Positions 3,012 through 45,676 of a stretch of DNA of 45,676 nt are shown here, piece after piece; positions within the stretch are counted from its first letter, which is position 1; the number at the start of each line of letters is the position of its first letter. The stretch covers positions 1 through 45,676 of the IMG/VR virus record IMGVR_UViG_3300033064_002947. One strand, given 5' to 3'. The notes beneath the pieces were generated by a model. The model saw nothing but the letters and a program-made list of their open reading frames with translations. It searched no databases and had not been told where the DNA came from. This stretch comes from a virus. Both the position numbers and the translations under genes were made by a program.

Positions 3012-4763
3012 TTGGACCTGAGCATCGTTTCCGGCACGTACAACAGGCTGCAATACCTGATGAACATGGTCGAGTCGGCCCGGCGACCACTGCGGAAGGT
3101 GGAGGGCATCGAGTACGAATTCGTGCTGGTGGACGGCGGGTCGATGGACGGCACGATCGGATGGTGCCAGAACCAGCCCGACGTCAGGCTGATCGAGCAT
3201 GGCACGCTCAAGGGTGCTGTCAAGGCGTTCAATGACGGGGCCTTCGCCGCGAGCGGCGATTACGTGATCCTCGCGAACGACGATATCGAATTCGTCGAGG
3301 ATTCGGTGCTGAGGGCGCTCGTCTTCATCCGCCAGAGGCCCGAATGCGGAATCGGCTGCTTCTACCAGGACCGCGGCGGCAAGGGCTGGCACGTGGAGAA
3401 TATGCCGATCGTGAGGGACGGACGGCAAGCATATGCACCTTACGGTCAGGTCTGCATCATCCCGAAGTGGCTCGGCGACCGCGTCGGCTGGTGGGGCGAT
3501 TACTTGCACACCTACGGTGGGGACAACGAATTGTCGTCCCAGGTATATGAGACCGGGTACAAGGTCATTCCAATAGAGGGCTGCAAAATCCACGACAACG
3601 AACCGAATGACGGCCTGCGCAAGATCAACAACATCTCTGGCGCCCACGACCCACGGGCGGTGCGGGGTCACCATCCCGACTCGTGGGCCTGGGGCAAGCG
3701 GTGGCGGGATGAGGCGAGGAACTTGGTCGGGCCGCGCATCCGGGACGACTTGCTCTGGGAGCCGCAGACGGCCCGCGAGGAACGGTTCCTGTATCTCCCG
3801 ATCTTCGAGACCGGCTGGCCAGTGCAAAAGGAGCAGAAAAGGGGATTGAGGGAGGCACTGGCCCTCCGGGGCACGATCAAGGAGATAGACTATATCGGGA
3901 TCGCCGCTGCAGACGGCAAGGAGAAACTGCTGGAGGAGCTGGCAGAATGGGCCGTGAAGATCCAGCCGACGGTATGCCTTTTCCAGCTCCACGGCGCGGA
4001 CCCGCTGGGTCCGGCGGATGTGGAGTACCTCCGCAAGGTGATTCCGGACGCTACGTTCGTGAATTGGAACGGCGACTATTGGCCAGACAACCTGCTGACA
4101 GAGCAAGGGATGGCGCTGGCGAGGGCATTCGATTATCAATTGATTGTCAACCGGGCCGTGCTGGAAGAGTACGTCAGGATGGGGGTGAAGGCGGCGTACT
4201 GGCAGATCGGCTGGGAGCCGGATGGCGTCGGGCACGATCCCATGGACCGGTGCGAGGTGGCGTTCCTGGCGAACGGGTACTCCAAGGAGCGGCAGCGGCT
4301 GGTGAAGGATTTGCGGGGGCTGGGGCTGGATTTCCACCTGTGGGGCAAGGGCTGGTCCGACGGCTGGGCGCGGGGCGAATGCCTGTACGATTTCGAGCAG
4401 GCATGTCGCGTATACCGGGGCGCGAAGATCAGCCTGGGTGACAGCCAGTGGCCAGATTCTGGATTCGTGTCCAACCGAGTGTTCCAGGCGCTGGCCGCCG
4501 GGGGGAGCGCGCTGGCGCACCAGCGGTTCCGTGGCATGGAAGATCTAGGTCTCGTGGACGGCGAGACGGTCATCGCCTGGCACTCGTTCGGCGACCTCGC
4601 AGAACGGCTGCGGCATTACCTGTCGCACGAGGAGGACAGGGCGAGGATCGCGAGCGCCGGGGAGCAGCTCGCATTGGAACGCCATTCATTCGACCGCAGA
4701 GTGGAGGAATTGTTCGACATCATCGGCCAACCGAAGGTCGGTTGGCAGGATGGCTGGAGATGA
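3012..4763 (+). CDS. Two-domain glycosyltransferase: GT2 plus CgeB-like GT
   Basis: A 583-residue protein started at TTG 3012, 9 bases after AGGAG; no in-frame ATG precedes the conserved LSIVSGTYNR. Residues 1-240 are a GT-A family 2 domain with VDGGSMDGT (about 40-48) and the nucleotide-sugar/metal motif ANDD (88-91). Residues 300-583 form a GT-B-like domain with GWEPDGV, a FVSNRVFQALAAGG motif and a final rhamnan/CgeB-type helix (YLSHEEDRARIASAG). One polypeptide could therefore add two sugars in succession. It is separated from the cupin by 33 bases. Confidence 0.85.
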   Translation: MDLSIVSGTYNRLQYLMNMVESARRPLRKVEGIEYEFVLVDGGSMDGTIGWCQNQPDVRLIEHGTLKGAVKAFNDGAFAASGDYVILANDDIEFVEDSVLRALVFIRQRPECGIGCFYQDRGGKGWHVENMPIVRDGRQAYAPYGQVCIIPKWLGDRVGWWGDYLHTYGGDNELSSQVYETGYKVIPIEGCKIHDNEPNDGLRKINNISGAHDPRAVRGHHPDSWAWGKRWRDEARNLVGPRIRDDLLWEPQTAREERFLYLPIFETGWPVQKEQKRGLREALALRGTIKEIDYIGIAAADGKEKLLEELAEWAVKIQPTVCLFQLHGADPLGPADVEYLRKVIPDATFVNWNGDYWPDNLLTEQGMALARAFDYQLIVNRAVLEEYVRMGVKAAYWQIGWEPDGVGHDPMDRCEVAFLANGYSKERQRLVKDLRGLGLDFHLWGKGWSDGWARGECLYDFEQACRVYRGAKISLGDSQWPDSGFVSNRVFQALAAGGSALAHQRFRGMEDLGLVDGETVIAWHSFGDLAERLRHYLSHEEDRARIASAGEQLALERHSFDRRVEELFDIIGQPKVGWQDGWR

Positions 4764-4797: not shown

Positions 4798-6165
4798 ATG
4801 CCCGAGGTAAGTGTTTTGACGGCGGTCTATGCTGATACGCCGGACAAAGTAGCCTGGCTACATGAGTCGGTTGGGTCCGTGCTGGAGCAGGATTTCAAGG
4901 ATGTCGAGATCATCGTCGTGGACGACTGCTCGCCGCTGAAGCTGGGGGAATTGGACGCCCGCGTAGTGCGAACGACCAGGCAGCAGGGACCGGCTGCGGC
5001 GCGGAATACTGCCGTCGCTCTGGCGCAGTCGGACGCGCTGCTGGCGCTGGATTCTGACGATCTACTGTCCGACCCCGGCGCGCTGTCGGCGATGTTCGAG
5101 GTGTGGGCGGCGAACCCAGACCGAGTGGTGTACGGCGATCTCCAGCAGTACAACCTGGTCGACGGCGCATTCCAGCGGCAAAAGGTGGTCAAGTTCCCGC
5201 ACTATACGTTCAGGCAATCGCTGAACCCGACGGGGCTGATTCCCGTGACGGCGCTCCATTCGAGGGAATGCCACGTCGCCGCGGGCGGCTGGAAGCCAGA
5301 ACTGGAAGCCGGGTTGGAGGACGTGGAATACTGGATCGCCGCGGGCGCGGCGGGTCATTGCGGTCTCAAGCTGGACCGCGTAGTACTGATATACCGCAGG
5401 CACGGGGCCAGCAGGACTACGAACATGCGACGGCAGCGGCTGGAAGGGATCGCCCGCGGCAAGATACGCGAGATACATGTAGATTTGTATGAGGGGAGGT
5501 ATCCGATGGGATGTTGCGGGGAAAGCGCGGCGGTGGGCAGGAGCGGCCCCATCGACGGGCAGCGATATGTGCCCGGTCCGACGTCGCTAGTGGCATTCAG
5601 GGAAGACGAGAAGGTATGGGTCAAATACAATGCCAAGCGCACCGGCGCATTCGGCATGGTCGGCCCCGCGACCCGGTACACCTACATGGTAGAAGGAACA
5701 GGCCACGTGTTCGAAGTTCACGTGAACGACGTCCAACTGTTCCGCAGGAGCGGGCGGGGGCAGGATTTTTCAGTGGGTGTCGCCCCGCCAGAACCCGAGC
5801 CAGAATCGGTAGTGAAGGAAGTGCGGGAATTCCAGGCCGCGCCGCCGGTGATGGCGGAGATTGAGCAGCTAGACGAGATCTCCGCGGCCGAGCATGGAGT
5901 AGAGTTGCCGGAGAAGCCAGAAGAAATCAAATTGCCGGAAGAGACGCCGGAAGAGATTGAAGAGATCCGATTGCCGGAAGCCCAACCGAAGAGGGAAATC
6001 GACCTGGCCTCGCTGGGACTGACGGACGCCGTCCACCGGGCTCTCCACGGCTGGACAGTCGAGCGGCTGGCGGGCGCGACGGTAAGCGACCTGACGCCCA
6101 TCCGGGGCATCGGCATCGTGACGGCAGCGAGGGTCATCGATGGGGCGAAGAATGCTCTTGCCTGA
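4798..6165 (+). CDS. GT2 glycosyltransferase with C-terminal virion-like and HhH segments
   Basis: A 455-residue protein. Residues 1-215 are a family 2 glycosyltransferase with SVLTAVYAD, VDDCS (41-45) and the DSDD metal motif (85-88). About residues 255-320 form a short beta-rich domain (VWVKYNAKRTG, GPATRYTYMV, FEVHVNDVQLF) that resembles small repeats in phage head proteins. An acidic Pro/Glu linker follows (residues 325-405). The last 50 residues contain a helix-hairpin-helix (LTPIRGIGIVTAARV). A transferase joined to non-enzymatic binding modules is unusual. The ATG follows GGAGG with good spacing. Confidence 0.8.
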   Translation: MPEVSVLTAVYADTPDKVAWLHESVGSVLEQDFKDVEIIVVDDCSPLKLGELDARVVRTTRQQGPAAARNTAVALAQSDALLALDSDDLLSDPGALSAMFEVWAANPDRVVYGDLQQYNLVDGAFQRQKVVKFPHYTFRQSLNPTGLIPVTALHSRECHVAAGGWKPELEAGLEDVEYWIAAGAAGHCGLKLDRVVLIYRRHGASRTTNMRRQRLEGIARGKIREIHVDLYEGRYPMGCCGESAAVGRSGPIDGQRYVPGPTSLVAFREDEKVWVKYNAKRTGAFGMVGPATRYTYMVEGTGHVFEVHVNDVQLFRRSGRGQDFSVGVAPPEPEPESVVKEVREFQAAPPVMAEIEQLDEISAAEHGVELPEKPEEIKLPEETPEEIEEIRLPEAQPKREIDLASLGLTDAVHRALHGWTVERLAGATVSDLTPIRGIGIVTAARVIDGAKNALA

Positions 6166-6484
6166 TGCCCTGCTCGTCGCGCTGTCCGCATTCACCATCG
6201 TCTGGGCGCTGTCCTTCTGGTATAGGACGGACTGGCTCCGGGAACGGCTCGGTGTGTATTTCGTCCATGATACCGACGGGGAGAGGCTGGATCGGGATGA
6301 CGGCGGCGGCTTGGGCGGCTGGTTCAATTGCCCGCAGTGCATGGCGATATTGGGTGTGTTTGCGGCGGGTTTGCTGTGGCTCTTTTTCAAGGACGCGCTT
6401 GTCCCGCTTGCGGGGCTGGGAATCGTCCTTTTGCTGGTGAGGTGGTATGAGGGCACGAGAGTGAAGGCGAGGTGGTGGGTTTGA
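6140..6484 (+). CDS. Small membrane protein, DUF1360-like
   Basis: Up to 114 residues. It has an N-terminal membrane segment (ALLVALSAFTIVWALSFWY), a cytoplasmic or external loop, a FNCPQCM cysteine pair and two further hydrophobic helices. The C-x-x-C entering a membrane helix recalls DUF1360 proteins, common in Gram-positive bacteria and their phages, whose function is unknown. It overlaps the previous gene by 26 bases; ATG 6152 is an equally possible start. Confidence 0.65.
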   Translation: MGRRMLLPDALLVALSAFTIVWALSFWYRTDWLRERLGVYFVHDTDGERLDRDDGGGLGGWFNCPQCMAILGVFAAGLLWLFFKDALVPLAGLGIVLLLVRWYEGTRVKARWWV

Positions 6485-7986
6485 ACATTCAGAGAATAGG
6501 CAATCGCATACTCACGATTGGCAACCTGGGTGCGGTGCAGGCAGTGCAACTGGGAATGGCCGTGCGTTTCTACGTTGAGAAGGTCAGCGGATACAGCCCT
6601 ATAGCATACTGGACTATGAACGAGGCGTCTGGAGCGGTGGCGGAATGCGAAATCAATGTTTTGCAGAACGGCGCCTACCACGCCGTGACCCTGGGCCAGA
6701 CCGGCATAGGCGATGGCCACACCTCCACGCTCTTCGACGGCTCTACTTCCTGGCTGGACATCTACTCCACCACCTTCCGCGACGCCTTCAACGGCGCCGA
6801 GGGTAGCTTCATGATCTGGTGCAAGGTCAGCGCAGCCGGGGTCTGGGCAGACGCAGCACAACGGGCGCTCTGCCGTTTCGAGTACAACGGCGCCAACTAT
6901 GTCCGTGTCGAAAAGGGTACGACCGCCAACCGCCTCCAGTACCGCTTCAAGGCCGGAAATGTCAGCGAGATCGGCGTCGACACCATCTCAGACACGACCT
7001 GGATCTGCCTTCTCTTCACCTGGTCCAAGGCTGCCGAGGCCGTCATCCTCTACATCAACGGCGTCCAGCAGGATACCGACGTCACCCTGGGTGTTTGGGC
7101 CGGTGTTCTTGGCGCGACTACCACGCTGATAGGAGCTTACACGCAAGTTCCGGCGGAAGTGTGGAGCGGCTACCTGGCCCATGCCGCAGTCTGGGCGGCA
7201 GCGCTGGACAAGTGGGCTGCACTGGATCTCTACCGCTTCCTCACCACCGACCCCAAGACAAACGTTGCTGCTGCCGACAGCGGCGCAAACGCGTTGCACG
7301 GCACCTACGTCTCAACCTACCTCAATCACGGCGGCGAGGGATGCGCCTACTTCGATAAGACCCTGCCCAGCTACGTCGTCTTGCCCCATGCCACGATCCA
7401 GCCGCTATGGAATCCGGACGAGTCCATGACGTTTTTCCGCTACAAGTCCGAGGCCGACAACTGGACGGACGCAGCCGACTCCAAGCAACTCACCTTCCGC
7501 CACGAGCCCAGCGGTCCCAGCTACATCATCGCTGAAACCGGCGACGCACGGCAAAGGTGGTACTGGAGTGGGCAAGGCGTTCTGGATTCTGTTGAGAAAA
7601 CCACGTTCTCACCTACCACATGGCAGACCTGGGGACAGTATGTCAGCGTCGCCAACGACGAGCTCCGCGCCTACCTGAACGGGGCGCAAGAAGGCGCCAC
7701 CCAAGCGACCCTCACCGCCTGGCTTGCTGGCCTTGCCCTCCAGAACGCCGCCATCGGCTCCAATTGCATCGACTCTGGATCTGGCCCGGTCTACGGCGCG
7801 AATCCCTGGTGGGGCTACCTCAAGGACTGCATCATCACCCTCTCCGGCGCAAACGTCACCGGCCCCGACGCCAAAGCCGCCGCCATCCACGCCAGCCTGG
7901 CGGCTGGCACCCTGACCGCCGCCAACCTCAACACGCACTTCGGTGCGGGAAAGTGGGCCTGGTGGAAATTAGACGAAACGGCTTGA
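6481..7986 (+). CDS. LamG/concanavalin-like lectin protein, probable virion adhesin
   Basis: About 501 residues with two concanavalin-A/LamG-like jelly-roll units. The first has AYWTMNEASG, STLFDGSTSWLDI and FTWSKAAEAVILYINGVQ (roughly residues 25-240). The second runs from about residue 250 to the end and finishes with AWWKLDETA. These domains bind carbohydrates or cell-surface ligands. TTG 6481, 8 bases after GAGG, is preferred over GTG 6472/6475, which are too close. Codons ending in C (GCC, ACC, AAC, ATC) are much more frequent than in neighbouring genes, suggesting separate origin. A receptor-binding or decoration role is inferred. Confidence 0.75.
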   Translation: MNIQRIGNRILTIGNLGAVQAVQLGMAVRFYVEKVSGYSPIAYWTMNEASGAVAECEINVLQNGAYHAVTLGQTGIGDGHTSTLFDGSTSWLDIYSTTFRDAFNGAEGSFMIWCKVSAAGVWADAAQRALCRFEYNGANYVRVEKGTTANRLQYRFKAGNVSEIGVDTISDTTWICLLFTWSKAAEAVILYINGVQQDTDVTLGVWAGVLGATTTLIGAYTQVPAEVWSGYLAHAAVWAAALDKWAALDLYRFLTTDPKTNVAAADSGANALHGTYVSTYLNHGGEGCAYFDKTLPSYVVLPHATIQPLWNPDESMTFFRYKSEADNWTDAADSKQLTFRHEPSGPSYIIAETGDARQRWYWSGQGVLDSVEKTTFSPTTWQTWGQYVSVANDELRAYLNGAQEGATQATLTAWLAGLALQNAAIGSNCIDSGSGPVYGANPWWGYLKDCIITLSGANVTGPDAKAAAIHASLAAGTLTAANLNTHFGAGKWAWWKLDETA

Positions 7987-12947: not shown

Positions 12948-15900
12948 ATGGCGCTGCCCAAGGTAGGTATGCTTGCCATGGTTGAGGGCATGTCCCAGTA
13001 CATGCGCGACGTCGGTATAATGGAAAAGTCGTACCTGTCCCTGGAGAAGGGCGCACAATCGCTGGAAAAGAAGACCGAGGCCCTGGGCAAGAAGTGGGAT
13101 GCAGTCGGCAAGACATTCTCCAAAGCAGGCACGATCATGCTCGGGGCTGGAGGGGCGGCTGCGGCTGGCATACTCGCGCTCGCGACGTCCGCCGGGACGA
13201 TCCCAGGCATCACCCGGGCGTTCGAGATGATGTCGAAGGAATCGGGCTTGTCTCTGGAGCAGCTCCGCAAGGCGTCTATGGGCACCGTGTCTGACCTGGA
13301 ACTGATGAGATTGTCCAACGTTGCGCTCACCGGCGCTGGCGAGCAGCTGGGCGTGGAGTTCGGCCAGAATTTGCCGAAGCTCTTGAACATCGCGCAGGCT
13401 GCCGCCAGGGCGACTGGCCAAAGCTCGGAATTCATGTTCCAGTCCCTCGTCACCGGCATCAAGAGAACCTCCCCGATGCTGATTGACAACACCGGCCTCC
13501 AGCTCAAGCTGGGCGAGGCGAACAAGGCGCTGGCCGACCAGCTCGGGGTCACCACCGAGCAACTGAGCGGCGAGCAGAAGCAGATCGCGATCTTCAACGC
13601 CACACTCCAGGCAGGGCAGAAGATGGTGGACCAGTTCGGGGGCGGCCAGACGACCGCCGCGGAACAGACCCAGGCATTTACCACCAGGCTCAAGAACCTC
13701 AAGGACGAGCTCTCGGTGGAACTGCTGCCCGCGTTCACGACGGCGATGGACGTCGTGGGGAAGGCCGTCGGCAAGTTCGCGGACCTGGCGATCCCGCTCA
13801 AGACAACCATCGCGCATTTTGCCGTGCTCGGGACAGGAGTGCTACTCGTGGGCGGCATAGTGGCGAAGTTGGTTGGGTTCGTCGGCCCCGCTATCGTCAT
13901 CGTGGGGAAATTGGGGACGGTCGCAATAAGTACCGCGCAGACACTGGCGCTGATGGCGATGGAAGCCGGGAGCTTGGGGGCAGCGCTCAGGGCGCTCGCA
14001 GTGACAGCTGGGCCGTTGGTATTGGCAGGGGCACTTGTCGCGGCTATAGTTGCGATCCATCAGATGGAAGAGGCGCATAAGAAGGAAGCGGCGGCGATAG
14101 TTGAGGCGTCCGATACCTACGATCATTATATCTCACGGATGCGGGGTGCGAAGCTGGAGTCATATGCACTATCAGAGAGCTTATATGAGCAGGTGAAGGC
14201 GATACAAGCAACGGGCCAGGCGATAGATGTAGCCGGGCTCCAGGATGCGCTCGCGGATCTGGAAGACGCCTTTGCTGGCGCGCGGGCGCGGGGTGGCTCA
14301 CTAAACCTCAGGGAGCTGATCGACGGCATGGGCGAACTAGAACTGATGGTCGCCGCCGATGTGCAACAAATGCAACAGCTCGGAAAGTCGATGGGGATGA
14401 CGTCGACGGTCGCGCTCAAGTTTGCTCAGAATGTATCGGAATTGGCGATCGCTGAGCGTAATCAGCGCACGGAGGCAGAAGAAGTCCTGCGCATTGAAAC
14501 CCAACGGGTGCAGATTTATCAACGATTGTCCCAAGCCACCAAGCAGCTAGCGACTGATGAACAAGACCTCGCCGGGAACACCGAAATCGTCGCCAAGATG
14601 GCTGCGGACGTCACGAAGAAATTCCAGGACCTCGCGCACAAAGCGGGACTAACCACCAAGGAATTCAAAGAACTCAAGGATGAGACTGGCTATACCAATG
14701 AAGAAGTCGTCGCGATGGGCCAGGACCTGGAGATCACTGCCAAAGAATTCGACGATCTGGCGGCGGAGACCGGGTACAGCCGGGAGCAATTGGAATACTG
14801 GCATCAAGAACTGGGGCAAGGAGAAACATTCCTCCGCAGCTACATTAAGGGCCTCGATGACGCGCAGGCGCAGATGGTTGCCCTGTCTGGCACCATCGCC
14901 GGGGGGATAGGGGACCTCCGGGACCTGAATGACGAAGTGAGAGGCATCGGCAAGGACTACAGGAGGGCGATGGGCGGCATCAGCGCTGGCATCGGCACGG
15001 AGATAGACAAGATCAACGAGAAGTACGACGAGATGCACCCGGACCCGACCACGGTGCAGGAACGGCTAGGCATGGACGCTGACGCCTGGGACGAGTATGC
15101 GCTGCGCTTGGATGCCACGCTGGACGGCGTGACGACCGGCCAGGAGCAAGGATGGGTCGACTCGATGGCGGCGATGACCGTGAATTCCGACGAGTACCGC
15201 CAACGGGAAGGCGAGGCGCAGGACGCCTGGCTTGCCCGTCTGCGCGGTTCCTTCTATGAAATGGGACTGCCCCCGGAATTCTATGACACGGAATCCGGGA
15301 AGTACCAGGCACATCTCGCCGAGATAGACGCGCTGAGGCAGGGAGAGATACAGAAGCAGAGGGATGCTGCAGCGGCCTCGGCAGCGATTGAGCAGCAGAA
15401 ACGGGACGCGGCATTGGCGGCGGCGCAGCAGAAAAAGGAGGATCTCGTCTTGGCGACGTCGCTCCAGATGGCGGAGGAGCTGGGCCTGCTCCAGACCTGG
15501 GCGAACGACACGATGGGCGTGATGGCCCCGGCGTTCGATTCTGCGGACGAAGTCCTGCAGCACTTGGAGGCGGGCACCCTGGAACTGACGCCGGAGCTGG
15601 AGGCATTAGTCGGTGCAATGCAGACCGGACTATTGGGGACATTGGAGAGCACCGGCGTGGCAGCGGAGGAGACGGCGGGCAAGCTGTCCGACCTGTTCAC
15701 GGAATCGGAAGATCAGGCCGCAGGCATGCTCACGGATTTCGAGGCCATACAGACGGCGGCGGAGAATGCGACCGCAGCGATGGGCGATTTCACCAAGCCG
15801 CCAGAAGAGGAGAAGACGTTCCTCGACTACATCATGGAACAGCTCCTTCCATTCGAGGAAGGCGTCGGTACGACGATGGACAACGTCGGGATCAAGGCCG

Positions 15901-16634
15901 GGGAGACGACGGACAGTGTCAAGTATGGCTGGCTGGACGAGGCAGAGGGGGCGCTGCCGCTGATACAGCAAGGGCTCGCGAACATAGAGCTTGGCGCGGT
16001 GGACACCACTTTCCCCAATATCGAGACCGCCGGGAAGACCGCCGCGGCCAACGTCAAGACCGCGTGGACCAACTTCATCACGGCGATGATCAAGCCTGAT
16101 GAGGGCCAGTTCGATAAACTCCAAAAAGATTGGATTGACACCGTGGCCGCGATGGAAACGAAGTTCATCAATTCGATCAAGGCGATGAAGAAGAAGATGA
16201 ATGCGCTCGTGGAAGAAATCCGGGCCGCGATCCGGGCCTGCCGGACGCTTGGGCAGATGGAGTGCGGTGTCGGCGGGGGAGGCGGTGGCGAAGAATCAAC
16301 CTTGCCACTAGGGTGGGAATGGTACAACGACGAGCAGGGCCGCAGACTATCCAGGCCGATAGGCTCTCTGCAACCCGGCGGCATGGCCTGGGCCGGGCAT
16401 ACCTATCTCACTGGCGAACGGGGGCCCGAACTGTTCACGCCGGGGATCAGCGGAAGGGTGCATCCCGCTGACGTGACGGTGCCCGCGCTGGCAGTAACGG
16501 GGCTGGGAAACGTCACGACGCGAAGCAATAGCAGGACCATAAACAACGAACTCAATCTAACCGTGCGGACCATGGCCCCGGCATCGACCGTCATGCACGA
16601 TTTCGAGATGATGCGCGCGCTGGTGGGAGGATAG
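12948..16634 (+). CDS. Tape measure protein
   Basis: The longest gene in the window, 1228 residues, in the canonical place after the chaperones. It has an N-terminal coiled coil, a membrane-like segment (residues 60-83, TIMLGAGGAAAAGIL), the conserved tape-measure helix pair FEMMSKESGLS (from 92) and GTVSDLELM (from 112), and two hydrophobic segments near residues 287-315 and 340-365. Long charged helices and a Gly-rich linker near residue 1107 follow. Length sets tail length; by the usual 0.15 nm per residue rule this predicts a tail of about 180 nm, as inference only. Confidence 0.9.
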   Translation: MALPKVGMLAMVEGMSQYMRDVGIMEKSYLSLEKGAQSLEKKTEALGKKWDAVGKTFSKAGTIMLGAGGAAAAGILALATSAGTIPGITRAFEMMSKESGLSLEQLRKASMGTVSDLELMRLSNVALTGAGEQLGVEFGQNLPKLLNIAQAAARATGQSSEFMFQSLVTGIKRTSPMLIDNTGLQLKLGEANKALADQLGVTTEQLSGEQKQIAIFNATLQAGQKMVDQFGGGQTTAAEQTQAFTTRLKNLKDELSVELLPAFTTAMDVVGKAVGKFADLAIPLKTTIAHFAVLGTGVLLVGGIVAKLVGFVGPAIVIVGKLGTVAISTAQTLALMAMEAGSLGAALRALAVTAGPLVLAGALVAAIVAIHQMEEAHKKEAAAIVEASDTYDHYISRMRGAKLESYALSESLYEQVKAIQATGQAIDVAGLQDALADLEDAFAGARARGGSLNLRELIDGMGELELMVAADVQQMQQLGKSMGMTSTVALKFAQNVSELAIAERNQRTEAEEVLRIETQRVQIYQRLSQATKQLATDEQDLAGNTEIVAKMAADVTKKFQDLAHKAGLTTKEFKELKDETGYTNEEVVAMGQDLEITAKEFDDLAAETGYSREQLEYWHQELGQGETFLRSYIKGLDDAQAQMVALSGTIAGGIGDLRDLNDEVRGIGKDYRRAMGGISAGIGTEIDKINEKYDEMHPDPTTVQERLGMDADAWDEYALRLDATLDGVTTGQEQGWVDSMAAMTVNSDEYRQREGEAQDAWLARLRGSFYEMGLPPEFYDTESGKYQAHLAEIDALRQGEIQKQRDAAAASAAIEQQKRDAALAAAQQKKEDLVLATSLQMAEELGLLQTWANDTMGVMAPAFDSADEVLQHLEAGTLELTPELEALVGAMQTGLLGTLESTGVAAEETAGKLSDLFTESEDQAAGMLTDFEAIQTAAENATAAMGDFTKPPEEEKTFLDYIMEQLLPFEEGVGTTMDNVGIKAGETTDSVKYGWLDEAEGALPLIQQGLANIELGAVDTTFPNIETAGKTAAANVKTAWTNFITAMIKPDEGQFDKLQKDWIDTVAAMETKFINSIKAMKKKMNALVEEIRAAIRACRTLGQMECGVGGGGGGEESTLPLGWEWYNDEQGRRLSRPIGSLQPGGMAWAGHTYLTGERGPELFTPGISGRVHPADVTVPALAVTGLGNVTTRSNSRTINNELNLTVRTMAPASTVMHDFEMMRALVGG

Positions 16635-29302: not shown

Positions 29303-29564
29303 CGTCGGCCTCCTTAATGACATCAGCCGCCAGGCGCTTCCATTCTTCAACAATTTCTTGAACTATATCTGGGTCAATGTGTTCCCATTCTTGCCCCAAA
29401 CCTCGCCTACCCGTCAGGTCGCTGATGATGGCCTGGACAATTGCTGGCACTTTGGCGATTATACGATCCCGCTCCGCTGCGGCGGTTTGTTTTGCACCAT
29501 CCTTCCAACCGTCCTGATACCCACGATCGTATTCGTTGTTGAGTGGTCCACCATCAAATGTCAT
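29295..29564 (-). CDS. Small tandem-family protein (89 aa)
   Basis: From ATG 29564 after GGGAGA; its ATG overlaps the stop of the DUF5131 gene. Contains DRGYQDGWKDGAKQ and AAAERDRIIAKVPAIV, related to the helix in the next two genes, and ends in KEADDE with the start of the next gene embedded. Function unknown. Confidence 0.65.
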   Translation of the reverse strand: MTFDGGPLNNEYDRGYQDGWKDGAKQTAAAERDRIIAKVPAIVQAIISDLTGRRGLGQEWEHIDPDIVQEIVEEWKRLAADVIKEADDE

Positions 29565-30436
29565 CGTTGGTCTCCCTGCCTCTGCTGCTCTACGTCCGGA
29601 TACTCCCTCACCTGCAGCACTGGATCCCACTCGGCGGGGTCGTGGCTCACTTTGCCGTTGACCTCGATTTGCTTCACGAACACGGGCACACCAGCGGCAT
29701 CGCCCTGGCTTACCAGGTCAATGGCCCATTCCAATTCCATCGGGCGGCGGTTGGGGCCGGATTCGCAGCCTATGATGATCCAATCGAGCCCTCGCTTTTC
29801 AGCGGCCTCAATGTTTTCCCATTGCTCTGTATCACAACAATCGCAATACGTACTTGTATGCTGCCAGTCATGGCAATCAGGACACCGCCATTGAGCTATG
29901 AATTGCTCAATCTCTATCGGTCCAATCATCGGCTCCATGCTCACGAATCGCACGGCAGCGGGTGTGCGCAGTAGCTCAGGCAGCATCCGGTCGGCGTCGG
30001 CCTGGGTGCTGACGCTGACGCCGAACTGAATGTGCTCAGGCCACCAGAGACGTGCCCCGCGTCGCCTTACATCATAGTCCAGATACTCAAGTATCCGCCG
30101 TGGGCGCTTCGTCAATATTTGATACGTATGCTGGTTGGCGATTCGCATGTGGGTGATGACCCGATCCACGAACCCAAGCGGCACATCCTCATGGAACAGA
30201 TCACCCATCGAACATACGAACACCCGGCACGGTTTCTTCCACCCCAACGGCTGGTTCAGCCTGTCAGGGTGGAGCTTCACCTCGAAGTGGTTGGGGGGTG
30301 ATTTACGATCCCACTGTTTCCAGAAACGGCGGCATAGAGTTTCAGCATAGCAGTGAGTACATCCAGTGGCAATCTTTGTACAGCCCGTTACAGGATTCCA
30401 GGTTTTTTCGGCCCATTCTATTTTTGTTGTTCCCAT
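29561..30436 (-). CDS. Phage Gp37/Gp68 family protein (DUF5131)
   Basis: A 291-residue protein from ATG 30436 (AAGGAG upstream). It begins MGTTKIEWAEKTWNPVTGC, followed by the cysteine cluster C19-x6-C26-x2-C29. Later motifs VFVCSMGDLFHE, LTKRPRRI, FVSMEPMIGP and IIIGCESGPN are hallmarks of this family, which resembles radical-SAM barrels but whose reaction is unknown. Two extra Cys pairs (CPDCHDW, CDCCD) form an inserted zinc knuckle. A truncated relative lies upstream at 31036. Confidence 0.85.
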   Translation of the reverse strand: MGTTKIEWAEKTWNPVTGCTKIATGCTHCYAETLCRRFWKQWDRKSPPNHFEVKLHPDRLNQPLGWKKPCRVFVCSMGDLFHEDVPLGFVDRVITHMRIANQHTYQILTKRPRRILEYLDYDVRRRGARLWWPEHIQFGVSVSTQADADRMLPELLRTPAAVRFVSMEPMIGPIEIEQFIAQWRCPDCHDWQHTSTYCDCCDTEQWENIEAAEKRGLDWIIIGCESGPNRRPMELEWAIDLVSQGDAAGVPVFVKQIEVNGKVSHDPAEWDPVLQVREYPDVEQQRQGDQR

Positions 30437-30450
30437 TCGGTCTCCTTGAC

Positions 30451-30479
30451 TTGACAAGTCTGTGTTAATGTAGTATCAT
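30451..30479 (+). promoter_or_regulatory. Sigma70-like promoter for the LAGLIDADG gene
   Basis: TTGACA (30451-30456), 17 bases, TATCAT (30474-30479), pointing right. The endonuclease ATG is 30 bases further on. The -35 is perfect and the -10 matches 5 of 6. Confidence 0.7.
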
Positions 30480-33308: not shown

Positions 33309-33824
33309 TCATTGCAGAATCGCGCCTTGCTTTTCTGCATACTTGCGCTGTCCGTCCGTCAAATTGGCCCAGCGCAGATTAGCCTGATTCAGGTCGGCAC
33401 AGCTCAGGTCGGCACAGTTCAGGTTGGCCCAGCGCAGGTCAGCACGGTTCAAATTAGCCCTGTGTAGGTTGGCCTCATATAGGTCTGCCCCATACAGATT
33501 TGCCCCATACAGATTTGCTCTGTGCAGATCAGCCCCGCGCAGGTCAGCTCCGCGCAGGTCGGCCCTGCGTAAGTTAGCCCCATATAGGTTGACCCCACGT
33601 AAATTGGCAGAAATCCGCGCTGGCAATATCCCGACATCAATTGCCCACCCGATGTATTTGCGCAGAAACTCATCACGCAGAATATGCTCCCATGTAGCGT
33701 CTCGCTGTTCCACCGCTCCCCATAGCCCCGAAACGTCAAGGCCATCAGGAAACCGTTGCGTGAATTCTGCCACGACATCGCAACGCGGCGCAAAGTGTTT
33801 CAAGATCTTCTCAGTGATTATCAT
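33309..33824 (-). CDS. Pentapeptide-repeat protein with N-terminal helical domain
   Basis: 171 residues from ATG 33824 (AGGAGG upstream, ATGA overlap with previous gene). Residues 1-75 are helical (TEKILKHFAPRCDVVAEFT). Residues 76-155 are about 16 pentapeptide units (ANLRGVNLYGANLRRADL, ADLHRANLYGANL). The DNA is correspondingly repetitive. Proteins of this kind can mimic DNA or act as scaffolds; a link to gyrase is not established here. Confidence 0.85.
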   Translation of the reverse strand: MIITEKILKHFAPRCDVVAEFTQRFPDGLDVSGLWGAVEQRDATWEHILRDEFLRKYIGWAIDVGILPARISANLRGVNLYGANLRRADLRGADLRGADLHRANLYGANLYGADLYEANLHRANLNRADLRWANLNCADLSCADLNQANLRWANLTDGQRKYAEKQGAILQ

Positions 33825-34258
33825 CGACAATCCTCCTTTTTCCATTCTTTGACAATACCTTGTCCTTGCACATCATTCCAGAGTTCGGCAACGCGCCAGT
33901 GCAAATTATCAGGTGTTTCCCCGTTCTTGCAACTTGTAAGTCGACCTTCAATTGGTTTCATGTCTAGGATATGTAGTTCGCATAGATTATCATCGGTCAG
34001 AAACGTACATGGGCCAAAAGGCCAAAACGGAGCATTCTCCCCTTCATACCCTATAATCGCAGGTGAAAGAAGCTCAATATCGCCACCATCAAATCCATCA
34101 CTGGCCCAATAATCATACATAAGCCTACTGCCAAGACCTGCATGGATAATAGCGCGAGCTTCATCTGGTGTAGGCCAACAAGGTCGTTCTTCGCATTTCT
34201 TTTGGCAGATTTTACAGGAGCAAGCTGACCATTCTAATTCTAGGATATTTCTGCTCAT
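33821..34258 (-). CDS. Cys-rich protein, possibly YkgJ-like metal-chelating
   Basis: 145 residues from ATG 34258. The start CSCKICQKKCEERPC has closely spaced cysteines, and two more clusters follow (FGPCTFLTDDNLCELH and TSCKNG). C-x-x-C...C-x-F-L-x(5)-C-x-(I/L)-H is the pattern of YkgJ-type zinc/iron-chelating proteins. The role in phage is unknown. Confidence 0.65.
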   Translation of the reverse strand: MSRNILELEWSACSCKICQKKCEERPCWPTPDEARAIIHAGLGSRLMYDYWASDGFDGGDIELLSPAIIGYEGENAPFWPFGPCTFLTDDNLCELHILDMKPIEGRLTSCKNGETPDNLHWRVAELWNDVQGQGIVKEWKKEDCR

Positions 34259-41794: not shown

Positions 41795-42625
41795 TCAAAA
41801 CACCTTCTCCTCTACTACCCTTTCCTTGAGCAGTGGCCTCACGTCCCCGCCACCAGCTTCAATGACCCAGAAGTGGGTCATTCTTGAGTACAGCCAGCCC
41901 AGGCTATCGGGCCAGTCATCTCCACCCGGCTCCACATTGCTCGCCAGGACCGTGACGGCCTGGAAGTCACATGCTAGGTCGTAGCGGTGGTCCAGGAGCT
42001 GCCGATACTTCTCCTCAGCCCACGGTGTCTGCTGGTAGGCATCCACCTCGTCGATCAGCAGTGCATAGCAATCAGACCACTGAGTAAAAGCGTTCGAGAA
42101 CCCCAACCCGCTCGGGCCGTAGGACTCCCGCAGGTGCTGCAGTAATCCCGCCGTGGTGCAATAGACCGCAGCCTTGCGCTGCTCCAGGAAATGGTTGGCG
42201 ATGCAGGCAAGGAGGAAAGTCTTTGACGTTCCGTAGCTGCCCCATAACGTCAGCCAACCATAGCCAAGATCCACCATCTGCCGGGCGGCGTCGTACTGGG
42301 CCCTCCGATCCACGTCGTCCAAATAGTCCTGGAACCGCGCATGCCGCAGCCAGGACGTGAGCCCGCTGGCGTCCCGGAGATACTTGGTCAGGTCGCCATT
42401 CTTGCACACGCACGGGAACAGTTTGCCGAACGCCTTGTGTTGGATGGAAACGTCTTCACGGAATACCCCAAGCCCAAGGCAGGCGGGACAGATGTCATCC
42501 CTTCGGGCCTGGGCCAGCGCGTGTTTCTTCCACTCCGGGGGCTCGTCGGATCTTGGAATGCTGAGCTGCAATGGCCCTGGCGACGGAAGGCGATGCTTGC
42601 TCGTGCTTGATCCTACTAGGGGCAT
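41795..42625 (-). CDS. DnaC-like helicase loader (AAA+ ATPase)
   Basis: 276 residues from ATG 42625 with AGAGGAGTG upstream. A zinc-type knuckle (C46/C49 and C72/C74) precedes the AAA+ core: Walker A GSYGTSKT (129-136), Walker B LLIDEVD (189-195), and sensor-like VTVLASNVEP. Such proteins load the replicative helicase at the origin. The Walker A Ser/Lys/Thr are intact. The first 131 bases overlap the end of the initiator gene in another frame. Confidence 0.85.
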   Translation of the reverse strand: MPLVGSSTSKHRLPSPGPLQLSIPRSDEPPEWKKHALAQARRDDICPACLGLGVFREDVSIQHKAFGKLFPCVCKNGDLTKYLRDASGLTSWLRHARFQDYLDDVDRRAQYDAARQMVDLGYGWLTLWGSYGTSKTFLLACIANHFLEQRKAAVYCTTAGLLQHLRESYGPSGLGFSNAFTQWSDCYALLIDEVDAYQQTPWAEEKYRQLLDHRYDLACDFQAVTVLASNVEPGGDDWPDSLGWLYSRMTHFWVIEAGGGDVRPLLKERVVEEKVF

Positions 42626-43445
42626 TACGTTTCACTCCTCTCACGTGGGGTATCTCCCCGATATTATACCACTTTTCCAGCATATATTTTACATTTCCTT
42701 TATACCAGCCAAGGCCGACATAAGCACGAACAACCTCTCTCCAACGGTCTAAGTCTGTGACTTCAGCCAGGTCAGGCCACCAGGATTTGGGCGGGAAGAG
42801 TTCTGTCACTTCACGGTAGACGTCCACGGCTGGCGGGCGCGGGGGCTTGGCGTCAATGCGGGGCTTCGGAACTGCTTGTTCCAGAACCTCGGAGTCTGTA
42901 ACGGGGACGGTGGGTTCAGAAATCTCAATCGGACAAGAATCTTGTGCCGGCGCGCTAGCGCCAAGGGTTTTATTCTTAACCTTATTATCCTTACCTTGTT
43001 CTTCTTTAGGTAACGGTTTTGATACATTAACCGTATCTTCTGAGATACATTCAGTTGTATCATTTATGATACGAATGGTTGTATCATTCTGTTTAGCAAG
43101 TTCAACCAACCCGAGTTCAACCAACCGTGGGATTTGATTCACGTCCTCGATATAGGTCATTGACGAGGTGCCGAGCCTCCTGACCCTGGTGATGTATCCA
43201 AGTCTTACCAGCTCTGTGGTGTGGCGCGAGACGGTAACCCTTTTTTTCTTGCGGTCGCTTGCTAATCTCTCGGTGCCAGGAAAGCACTCACCTTTTTGTT
43301 GTGCATATTTGAGATAGATGGCGTAGGTTCTGTATGCCCCATCACTGAGGTCAGGGTCCAGTGCGATTACATGGCTCAACTGAGCAAACCCAACTTTTTG
43401 TACGGGGTTGCGGTAAACGATGCTTTCCAATGATTCTTCTGTCAT
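42495..43445 (-). CDS. Winged-helix replication initiator
   Basis: 316 residues from ATG 43445. Residues 20-100 form a winged helix: ALDPDLSDGAYRTYAIYL, CFPGTERLASDRKK, VSRHTTELVRLGYITRVRR, typical of HTH_36 in phage initiators. After a variable linker (residues 120-210, Thr/Pro-rich) comes a DnaD-like C-terminal helical part (VYREVTELFPPKSWW, GNVKYMLEKWYN). It would bind the origin and recruit the loader gene that follows. The AP2-HNH gene stop overlaps its start by 4 bases. Confidence 0.75.
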   Translation of the reverse strand: MTEESLESIVYRNPVQKVGFAQLSHVIALDPDLSDGAYRTYAIYLKYAQQKGECFPGTERLASDRKKKRVTVSRHTTELVRLGYITRVRRLGTSSMTYIEDVNQIPRLVELGLVELAKQNDTTIRIINDTTECISEDTVNVSKPLPKEEQGKDNKVKNKTLGASAPAQDSCPIEISEPTVPVTDSEVLEQAVPKPRIDAKPPRPPAVDVYREVTELFPPKSWWPDLAEVTDLDRWREVVRAYVGLGWYKGNVKYMLEKWYNIGEIPHVRGVKRNAPSRIKHEQASPSVARAIAAQHSKIRRAPGVEETRAGPGPKG

Positions 43446-43936
43446 GGTCTTTTTTCCTGTGGGAAGTTTAGCGTGGCGAACTCACCGTGCAATTCAAGGG
43501 CTGCGGCGTCGTAGGCATGGGCGGCTTGTTCAAGGTCGTCGAAGTAGCCCTGATGAAGTTGTTTCCCATCGACAACGATATGTGCACGCCATTTTCTGCA
43601 CCCTTTGTGAAAGCTCGCGCCCATGTAGCCGGACGTATTTCTTTTGTATCGGTGGCTATTTCTCGCGTTCTCTTTGCGGCTGCACTCCCGGAGGTTCTCA
43701 CGGCGATTATCAAGGCTGTTCCCGTTGACGTGATCAGTCAGTATGTCCTTAGCAGGGTCGAGAATCAACCTATGCATGAATAGTTGCGTCCTCTTCCCCT
43801 TGAGCCATACGTTCCGTTTTGCGTATCCGGTTTTCCCTGTACGGGAATAATACCATCCCCATTGACTCAACCACTCGTGATCCTCATTGTCCACGATGGC
43901 GAACTTGCCTTGGGTCAGTGGTATCTTCTTGTTCAT
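43442..43936 (-). CDS. AP2-HNH homing endonuclease
   Basis: 164 residues from ATG 43936 (GGAGGG 5 bases upstream). Residues 50-95 are an HNH nuclease core (MHRLIL, DHVNGNSLDNRRENLREC). Residues 103-160 form an AP2 DNA-binding domain (GYMGASFHKGCRKWRAHIVV, AAHAYDAAALELHGEFA). Such genes are mobile in phages and bind specific recognition sites. It is read with its neighbours and preceded by a structured leader. Confidence 0.9.
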   Translation of the reverse strand: MNKKIPLTQGKFAIVDNEDHEWLSQWGWYYSRTGKTGYAKRNVWLKGKRTQLFMHRLILDPAKDILTDHVNGNSLDNRRENLRECSRKENARNSHRYKRNTSGYMGASFHKGCRKWRAHIVVDGKQLHQGYFDDLEQAAHAYDAAALELHGEFATLNFPQEKRP

Positions 43937-44084
43937 AGTTCCCTCCAATACAAAAGGACTGCTTCTCTTGCCCGGCTCCGTAGCCCTGTAGCGATCGCCC
44001 ACAAGCTGGCGAGAGATACGGGGCCGGACAAGAACAGCAGTCCTGCCGCTTGTGATTTCCCTCGCTACAGGGATATTCTAGGTT
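43937..44084 (-). ncRNA. Structured leader with interleaved inverted repeats
   Basis: Two alternative helices share one segment. The first pairs CCCTGTAGCGA (44072-44062 on minus) and CACAAGC (44054-44048) with GCTTGTG (44006-44000) and TCGCTACAGGG (43994-43984). The second pairs the 21-base segment 44043-44023, which lies in the loop of the first, with 43976-43956 (18 of 21 bases match), followed by UUUU. They cannot both form fully, because the 4-base linker cannot span a 21-bp helix. The layout is that of an antiterminator/terminator switch. Ribosome site GGAGGG and ATG follow. Confidence 0.55.
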
Positions 44085-44090
44085 GCCCAT

Positions 44091-44119
44091 ATTCTACTAC
44101 ACATCGCCAGCATTGTCAA
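44091..44119 (-). promoter_or_regulatory. Sigma70-like promoter for the replication block
   Basis: Minus strand TTGACA (44119-44114), 17 bases, TAGAAT (44096-44091). A start about 7 bases on gives a leader of about 147 bases before the AP2-HNH gene. Confidence 0.75.
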
Positions 44120-44134
44120 ATCCTGCATGTCAGT

Positions 44135-44200
44135 TCACCACCAGCCGAATACTCTTCCTGCCGCGTAGGGCGGCTGCTCAGGGAGTATGGGAGTGCTCAT
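44135..44200 (-). CDS. Possible micro-protein (21 aa)
   Basis: ATG 44200 overlaps the stop of the tape-measure-like gene (ATGA); the frame begins MSTPILPEQPPYAAG and ends FGWW. No independent ribosome site. Coupling is the only support. Confidence 0.35.
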   Translation of the reverse strand: MSTPILPEQPPYAAGRVFGWW

Positions 44201-44469
44201 TCAGTCTCCATCAATGCTAAATATTCCCAATTGGGCGGCACGATCTTTTGTAGCACCAATAGTTCTGGCACGTTGACCAATGCCACTATTTCTTCTAATG
44301 TGGATGCTAGCCCCGTCCCTACGAGCTTGTACCCGATTCTCATGAGGTCAATATCTGACACCGTGCCGCCTGTTGCCTCCCGCAGACTGCCCAACAAAGC
44401 ATAACTGTCTATGCCAGTGCTTTTTGCTAGCATCTCAAAGGCGATTGCGACCTGCTCAAGCTTTATCAT
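44197..44469 (-). CDS. Small protein resembling a tape-measure segment
   Basis: 90 residues from ATG 44469, which overlaps the previous stop. Residues 10-44 (AFEMLAKSTG..., GGTVSDIDLMR) match residues 91-121 of this phage's own tape measure protein (AFEMMSKESG..., GTVSDLELMR), with a 4-residue insertion. The conserved helix-turn-helix of tape measure proteins appears here as a free-standing, early-orientation gene. It may bind tail chaperone or tail-tip partners. Function is unknown; a decoy or exclusion role is speculation. Confidence 0.65.
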   Translation of the reverse strand: MIKLEQVAIAFEMLAKSTGIDSYALLGSLREATGGTVSDIDLMRIGYKLVGTGLASTLEEIVALVNVPELLVLQKIVPPNWEYLALMETE

Positions 44470-44618
44470 TCAATCTTCACCAAATCTATCACCATGCTGA
44501 AATTATCAAAGATTCTTGGCGACCCTCGCCCTAGATAAGTGTGCATCGTCGGCTTCAGCCCCGCAAAAAGCCCAACCCCAACTACCACCAGTTTGCAGAA
44601 TTTACGCCGAGACAGCAT
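44466..44618 (-). CDS. Small protein with a twin-arginine-like signal (50 aa)
   Basis: ATG 44618 with AAAGGA 6 bases upstream (ATG 44621 is an alternative). It starts MLSRRKFCKLVVVGVGLFAG. S-R-R-x-F-x-K followed by a hydrophobic stretch fits the Tat signal consensus. The remaining 28 residues are short and its stop overlaps the ATG of the tape-measure-like gene. A membrane-anchored or exported peptide is inferred. Confidence 0.55.
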   Translation of the reverse strand: MLSRRKFCKLVVVGVGLFAGLKPTMHTYLGRGSPRIFDNFSMVIDLVKIE

Positions 44619-44640
44619 CATATATCCTTTTCAGATTGCC

Positions 44641-44826
44641 CTACCACCAGCCCAAGCAGCGGCCCGCCAAGATGATACCTGCCGCTGATTTAATCAATTC
44701 TAGTATATAGCTCCAGGCCGTACATCTGATCTCGTTACGGCCTATCAGGAAAGGCCCGCCAAATATGTCTAGCGCCGCCGTCAATAGAATACAACTTGCG
44801 GAACTCAATATTATCCAGTCTGGCAT
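44641..44826 (-). CDS. Small two-helix membrane protein (61 aa)
   Basis: ATG 44826 with AAAGGAG 7 bases upstream. Helices at residues 3-20 (DWIILSSASCILLTAALDIF) and about 38-60 (YILELIKSAAGIILAG). Size and topology are compatible with a holin or membrane regulator; no charged holin-type start is clear. It is not next to the endolysin, so a holin role is unproven. Confidence 0.6.
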   Translation of the reverse strand: MPDWIILSSASCILLTAALDIFGGPFLIGRNEIRCTAWSYILELIKSAAGIILAGRCLGWW

Positions 44827-44843
44827 TTTACACTCCTTTCGGA

Positions 44844-45011
44844 TTACTTCTGGTCTATTGTTGTGTCCCAGCATTCCCTGTGCGCCGGACGATCATCCAT
44901 GTACGGATTAACATATACGGCACCACTGTCGAGGTCTTCCCAGGTGATAGGCTCTCCGCAGATGACGCAAGGCTCACCAATTAAGCATGAGAAATCACGG
45001 TGCAAAATCAT
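44844..45011 (-). CDS. Small zinc-site protein (55 aa)
   Basis: ATG 45011 with AAGGA 3 bases upstream. It begins MILHRDFSCLIGEPC and has C-x-x-C (CVIC) then RPAHREC, a pattern of C2HC zinc sites in small phage proteins. Protein-like throughout; function unknown. Confidence 0.55.
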   Translation of the reverse strand: MILHRDFSCLIGEPCVICGEPITWEDLDSGAVYVNPYMDDRPAHRECWDTTIDQK

Positions 45012-45048
45012 AGTCCTTGCCGAGGATATTGATCGTGTCGGGTTTCAT
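44995..45048 (-). CDS. Micro-frame (17 aa)
   Basis: ATG 45048 overlaps the C5-methyltransferase stop; it reads MKPDTINILGKDYDFAP and stops within the next gene. Possibly only a translational-coupling leader. Confidence 0.3.
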   Translation of the reverse strand: MKPDTINILGKDYDFAP

Positions 45049-45676
45049 GCGTACTCTACCTCCATGATTCGCTCTCCGATCCACTGTGTTACGTCTGGAA
45101 CTACGGCATTCCCTAACGCTCTCAGCTTCGCTACCCTGTCAGGTACTCCGGTGGCAACCCGTCTAATTCCGGGTTCTGGTAGCCATCCAGATCCAGCCAG
45201 TCTAGGGGGAAGCCCATCAGCCAAGCTGTCCAGGCGGGAGAGAGCTGTCCCCCGACCACTGACGGATCGTTCTTCTTCAGCGCCGTTTCCAAGTTGGGAT
45301 AGCGGTTCGGGTCGGCCTCTTTGGTTATCGTTGCCGCCATTGCTGAATTGGAGCGCGGCGTCGGCCACATCTTGACCGCCTTGCTCAGGGCTACATAGGC
45401 ATCCGCGCTGTTGTGCTGCTGGCGCTCTTCTGCTCTCGGCGTAGGCCACATCTTCTGCATCAGCGTTAACAGCGCAACGCTCCGCGCCTTCGGGTTCATC
45501 CCTGCCCCTTGTGCGTGATGGTCCCTTGTGTTCGGCGAGGGCCACAACGAAGATCCGTTCCCGTCTGTGCGGGGCATCGAAGGCGCAAGCTGGAAGATTA
45601 AGCGTCGTGCAGGAGTAGCCTTCACCTTCCAGGTCAGATAGCACCGTGTCGATATAGGTGGTGACGATTCCAAGCA
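45045..45676 (-). CDS. dcm: C5-cytosine DNA methyltransferase (C-terminal part)
   Basis: Open from the right edge, giving the last 209 residues. It has GYSCTTLNLPACAFDAPHRR with the family motif (A)PHRRERIFVVA and, at the end, RVAKLRALGNAVVPDV, the conserved motif X helix of C5 methyltransferases. The enzyme core and catalytic PC motif would be to the right. The intervening region is the variable target-recognition part. It protects phage DNA. The symbol is a family label, not proof of Dcm specificity. Confidence 0.8.
   Translation of the reverse strand, partial: LGIVTTYIDTVLSDLEGEGYSCTTLNLPACAFDAPHRRERIFVVALAEHKGPSRTRGRDEPEGAERCAVNADAEDVAYAESRRAPAAQQRGCLCSPEQGGQDVADAALQFSNGGNDNQRGRPEPLSQLGNGAEEERSVSGRGTALSRLDSLADGLPPRLAGSGWLPEPGIRRVATGVPDRVAKLRALGNAVVPDVTQWIGERIMEVEYA
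45131..45676 (-). other. Second long reading frame over the C5 methyltransferase
   Basis: Another frame on the same strand is open from the right edge to 45131. It contains TWKVKATPARRLIFQLAPSM, WPTP twice, and GGQLSPAWTAWLMGFPLDW, strings that I also know from proteins annotated as phage methylases. Motif content makes the 45045 frame the true C5 enzyme; this frame may be an annotated shadow or a real overlapping product. Confidence 0.4.

Follow-up and report, generated by a model that had tools for sequence, protein, structure and literature searches.

We analyzed a 45,676-nucleotide stretch of viral DNA (the window), which carries on its minus strand a string of three small genes for a membrane protein, a peptide and a mini-protein, the last of which resembles part of the tape measure protein (TMP) that the phage itself encodes. 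TMPs are long proteins that determine the length of the tail and lead the DNA into the cell. The features considered below are:

12948-16634, plus strand: the phage's own TMP, 1228 aa, matching phrog_1533 and phrog_3779 (tail length tape measure protein)
13185-13529, plus strand: the TMP domain matched by the mini-protein, with a second half that resembles peptide residues 28-48
43442-43936, minus strand: HNH/AP2 homing-type endonuclease, the next gene downstream of the mini-protein
44091-44119, minus strand: weak promoter-like site (11/12 consensus bases) immediately downstream of the mini-protein gene
44197-44469, minus strand: mini-protein, 90 aa (90 codons), with a domain match at residues 3-68 followed by an unrelated C-terminal tail
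44466-44621, minus strand: peptide, 51 aa, with SRRKFCK, the hydrophobic stretch LVVVGVGLFAGL, and residues 28-48 that resemble the TMP segment LGRxSPxILDN
44641-44826, minus strand: membrane protein, 61 aa from the ATG behind a Shine-Dalgarno-like AAAGGAG, with two hydrophobic stretches
44844-45011, minus strand: cysteine-containing small protein, 55 aa, the next gene upstream, with a weak Prok-RING match below the cut-off
45045-45644, minus strand: C-terminal part of a C-5 cytosine DNA methylase, near the record end

On this strand the genes are translated in the order methylase part, 55-aa protein, membrane protein, peptide, mini-protein. The three ORFs are as given in the preliminary description of this locus, with a peptide of 51 aa (50 aa if its second ATG is used) and an ATGA at 44466-44469 in which the mini-protein start overlaps the peptide stop. 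As that description also noted, a twin-arginine-like motif, a two-helix membrane protein and a TMP-like mini-protein occur in one gene string, and the mini-protein gene is far from the TMP gene and on the opposite strand (44197-44469, minus, versus 12948-16634, plus). A full TMP is a long protein encoded among tail genes; the mini-protein has 90 aa and is encoded far from them on the other strand.

The codon-use score of the mini-protein (0.162 per codon) was coding-like and higher than that of every other frame at this position, as judged against 503 wrong-frame chunks of which 95% scored below 0.045 and the highest reached 0.203. An overlapping plus-strand ORF that is longer than the mini-protein scored -0.214, and the scores of the peptide (0.045) and the membrane protein (0.044) were not separated from wrong frames. 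Judging from neighbors that encode an HTH_36 protein and methylases, the trio is predicted to sit among early genes. The promoter-like site, read from 44119 to 44091, faces the genes for the HNH/AP2 endonuclease and the HTH_36 protein and suggests that these following genes form a separate transcription unit, although one such site in the region is no excess over chance (mean of 1.8 in shuffles). The HNH/AP2 endonuclease has relatives in 2,431 phage records, all below 60% identity. No family match and no relatives in viral contigs were found for the membrane protein, and a search of the whole window for RNA families found no known family.

When the mini-protein was compared with the rest of the record by tblastn, the phage's own TMP was the sole other match at E values up to 10 (E = 1.8e-6). 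The Smith-Waterman score of the two proteins was 83, the best of 1,000 mini-protein shuffles reaching 68, and both results bear out the earlier remark that the proteins share a core. The domain lies at about residues 78-193 of the own TMP. A profile of 29 TMP domains that excluded the mini-protein recovered it with an E value of 4.5e-15 among 1,402 six-frame ORFs, a value that is flattered because 28 of the 29 TMPs had been gathered with the mini-protein or alignment A1 as queries, partly through the pattern GTVSD[IL][DE]LM; the match to the own TMP is unaffected by this selection. Against TMP profiles, the mini-protein scored 52-57 bits over residues 3-68, a match of about 64 residues and three predicted helices, so the likeness extends well past the single short helix to which it might have been confined. 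The mini-protein retains the conserved core GTVSD-x-(D/E)-LM with its flanking helices, as well as all eight invariant columns of the TMP-only alignment A3 (partly owing to the search pattern). Its start codon falls right at the domain edge, and it lacks the second half of the domain (TGQS, GRxSxxILDNLG).

Structure prediction for the mini-protein alone, one of the checks proposed at the outset, gave three helices at residues 4-17, 22-33 and 39-52 (AlphaFold2, mean pLDDT 80), at positions like those in the corresponding segment of the own TMP (5-20, 24-31 and 37-48). When viral models were searched with Foldseek, a named TMP came out on top (probability 1.00, with an rmsd of 1.2 across 63 columns and E = 0.086), a result that is not independent because the AlphaFold2 models were built on TMP alignments. 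Neither sequence nor fold gave a credible match among solved structures. The N-terminal regions of TMPs (PHROG 3779, 32115) likewise contain a three-helix domain with the motif F...L..LR.AT.GTVSD.(D/E)LM, and these analyses confirm that the mini-protein is a stand-alone copy of this conserved domain, which is widespread in TMPs.

Searching viral contigs with the mini-protein identified 14 loci, and an alignment-based search identified 35 loci that include those 14; the alignment search of genome contigs added 6 loci. All loci found were in longer ORFs of 224-1590 aa, the two shortest being cut by contig ends, whereas the mini-protein has 90 aa and is devoid of the GRxSxxILDN half. The F, GTVSD and LM positions are kept in 30/30 rows of alignment A2. 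Among the TMP segments of A3, 25/29 match phrog_32115, 11/29 match phrog_3779 (the tail length tape measure family) and 0/29 match Pfam at E values up to 0.01. Each viral record with such a TMP has one domain match (28/28), and among six sister-phage records, three have a single TMP domain match and no second copy. Matches occurred in 2/80 prokaryote genomes of the phylum to which the Latescibacterota match belongs and in 5/395 of the phylum of the Sphingobacterium match, all in ORFs of 609-1551 aa. Across the domain-carrying ORFs compared (n = 49, some of them near-copies), the mini-protein alone is shorter than 200 aa.

No stand-alone relative of the mini-protein, in any state, was found among the viral contigs, prokaryote genomes and phage and plasmid records searched; the viral-contig searches cover only records with the GTVSD core or with a tail gene of the sister type, and a diverged stand-alone family may escape them. 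Phage and plasmid records gave nothing credible (one match at E = 7 and otherwise none), a pattern search with the own TMP had no match in viral contigs, and megablast of window positions 20000-44999 matched no phage genome. Two sister records, of 99.9 and 52.7 kb, have tail genes in common with this phage (58% in one minor tail protein) but nothing of the operon, and looking for the same operon in other phages, as had been suggested, turned up no relatives of the gene set. We found no description of a stand-alone TMP domain gene in the literature. As no stand-alone relative came to light in the collections searched, there is no conservation or selection signal for the mini-protein. The preliminary description had allowed for a fragment with decayed relatives: no stand-alone relatives, decayed or intact, were found in these collections.

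The mini-protein had been taken to imitate the phage's own tail, but it is nearer to the TMPs of other phages. In pairwise comparisons it scored 115 with each of the TMPs at loci L017 and L018 and 108 with that at L019, and the own TMP came twelfth (score 85) in a ranking that counts near-copies and the mini-protein as well. Identical fragments were omitted from both trees that we built. In the first, from which two loci were left out by name, the mini-protein grouped with L017 and L018 (89/88); in the second, which has 83 columns and long branches and lacks any fragment without the anchor motif, as well as fifteen loci left out by name (the named omissions being near-duplicates and very long branches), it grouped with L017 (89/88). 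In the trees the own TMP grouped with L037 and with L054, a TMP from a sister phage, and forcing it together with the mini-protein cost 11.4 log units (AU p = 0.027). Because foreign TMPs are closer to the mini-protein than the own TMP is, and in view of this AU value, we conclude with moderate confidence that it was probably captured from another phage lineage and is not a recent self-copy; no timing is implied. A recent duplication of the own TMP was considered and rejected, since DNA identity is limited to a 30-base stretch over the core and the tree disfavors it.

Tat substrates carry an SRRxFLK-type motif followed by a hydrophobic stretch. The peptide has a Tat-type motif of this kind, SRRKFCK, followed by its hydrophobic stretch (mean hydropathy 2.63 over 12 residues), and the pattern [ST]RRxFxK that it contains is absent from all 3,197 ORFs with 60 aa or more in the compared DNA. 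Curated Tat signal models in Pfam and NCBIfam, by which short signals are easily missed, gave no peptide match up to E = 1, and no relatives of the peptide were found in viral contigs.

Peptide residues 28-48, TYLGRGSPRIFDNFSMVIDLV, align to a TMP segment of the type TGLGRKSPLILDNLG. In TMPs, this LGRxSPxILDN segment directly follows the stretch kept in the mini-protein, which itself is without it. The tests of this likeness, picked after the match had been seen, gave mixed results. A six-frame scan with the A3 profile placed the peptide third, after the TMP and the mini-protein, at 5.9 bits, a score reached by 0/5,000 shuffles and not significant among 1,402 window ORFs (E = 1.4). With a block-only profile, 17/5,000 shuffles reached the peptide score and four window ORFs besides the TMP scored higher, and in pairwise comparisons with TMP ORFs 1/200 shuffles reached it. 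A wider TMP profile, made after four TMPs that lack the anchor motif had been set aside and 44 fragments collapsed to 37 distinct ones, gave the peptide 7.3 bits, a score reached by 0/10,000 shuffles and 0/1,972 control ORFs (best 5.3); the peptide region with stops read through scored 4.1 bits. In pairwise comparison the peptide matched a sister-phage TMP (L052/L054) best, with 10/18 residues identical. These scores, modest as they are, suggest that peptide residues 28-48 may correspond to the TMP segment that follows the part in the mini-protein. If so, the two overlapping genes would carry between them both halves of one TMP domain with their order swapped, and the second half would come after a Tat-like membrane anchor. 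A hydrophobic stretch precedes the domain in 14/35 TMPs at a fixed cut-off and is most pronounced in L018 and L017, to which the mini-protein is most closely related. The membrane protein scored -4.0 bits against the wider profile, showing no TMP likeness, and the 55-aa protein gave no match; the idea of a linked set gains new support from the weak likeness of the peptide.

Since a stand-alone copy of an interaction domain lies next to membrane-type peptides, a competitor role is the simplest one, and we propose, with a probability of roughly 0.35, that a captured TMP domain has been kept as a decoy or poison of the entry or assembly of competing phages. The N-terminal three-helix domain would have come from a different phage lineage and would persist as a small gene, coupled in translation, beside two membrane-type peptides. 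Its product could compete for whatever the TMP domain binds, be it further TMP subunits, the tip of the tail or a partner in the membrane while DNA enters, and so disturb TMP-dependent DNA entry, or tail assembly, of competing phages. The function, membrane link and target of the mini-protein are in this respect what we infer, and superinfection exclusion by a TMP mimic appears plausible. The decoy reading is favored by the homology over about 64 residues, the conserved columns, the start at the domain edge, the coding-like frame and the ATGA overlap, together with the affinity to foreign TMPs, the predicted helices, the TMP-like segment of the peptide and the standing of TMPs as known or proposed targets of entry blocks, both by exclusion proteins and by the defense nuclease SNIPE. 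It is weakened by the lack of stand-alone relatives, the missing second half of the domain, the absence of TMP likeness in the membrane protein and a tree built on 83 columns with long branches, and also by the finding that no exclusion or defense family in Pfam, PHROGs, NCBIfam or PADLOC matched the trio above noise (best PADLOC E = 0.013).

To our knowledge, HK97 gp15, TP-J34 Ltp and Tuc2009 Sie2009 are not built from a TMP domain, unlike the mini-protein. These three superinfection exclusion proteins act on entry that depends on the TMP, which is their proposed target (PMC10883804), and are small, phage-encoded and membrane-linked, as is proposed for the trio from its genes. An elaborated form of the decoy reading, in which the Tat-anchored peptide would display LGRxSPxIxDN, the mini-protein would supply the GTVSD half, and this split and swapped domain would jam the TMP of rivals during DNA entry, seems improbable to us.

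The principal alternative is that illegitimate recombination placed pieces of a foreign TMP gene in the early region, perhaps with the HNH/AP2 endonuclease as a possible carrier, and that the resulting fragment stays open by chance, either without function or with a shifted one. We regard this as just as probable as the decoy reading, at less than even odds. The incomplete domain and the absence of relatives fit it, the next gene is of a common homing endonuclease type, and an HNH gene inserted next to the TMP gene has been described in cluster O mycobacteriophages (PMC4351075). The likeness to two neighboring TMP segments in swapped order also resembles a rearrangement, yet plain decay of a single copy would not account for that order. 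Every fully conserved residue is retained, the start lies at the domain edge and codon use is coding-like, all of which argue against a chance remnant, as does a scan of positions 43900-44900 around the ORFs, in any frame and with stops read through, which found no further TMP remnants.

Two other explanations are less likely than the decoy and fragment readings. The mini-protein might bind the own TMP or its chaperone and delay assembly, and it does share its domain with the own TMP while being encoded away from the tail genes; we consider this unlikely, as it is closer to the TMPs of other phages, three of the six sister records have a TMP domain match and no second copy, and the membrane-type neighbors would be left unexplained. 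What SNIPE, a membrane-bound bacterial defense nuclease with DUF4041, has in common with the trio is a link to the N-terminal region of siphovirus TMPs in a membrane setting (PMC13190303), whereas the trio has no nuclease-like family match. That the mini-protein occupies such host sensors of incoming TMPs is very unlikely: SNIPE contacts TMPs and its escape mutations fall at residues 100-150 of the Bas14 TMP (PMC13190303), and the domain of the own TMP lies at about residues 78-193, but a decoy made after entry would come late for the first genome.

TMPs are emerging as a hub of DNA entry and as a target of exclusion proteins and membrane defenses. A gene that encodes little more than a TMP domain would be a compact tool to find the binding partners of that domain and, if the decoy reading is true, would show phages using parts of one another's tails as weapons.

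Elsewhere in the window, no relatives of the HTH_36 protein were detectable in the sister records G507 and G508 or in viral contigs, and none were found in viral contigs for the 276-aa protein at 41795-42625. In the tail region, the matches shared by the two sister records (L057-L064; 99.9 and 52.7 kb) have the same scores. Upstream of the tail genes, the plus-strand ORFs at 3012-4763 and 4798-6165 have weak matches to glycosyltransferase-type PHROGs. Among the minus-strand genes are a 178-aa pentapeptide repeat protein (33309-33845) and a DUF5131 protein (29561-30457, E = 1.1e-72), which is also present in G507 at 32% identity. Finally, the two halves of the 504-aa protein at 6472-7986 (plus strand) both match a 247-aa sister-phage protein, the first at 40% and the second at 26%, and this protein probably arose by internal duplication.
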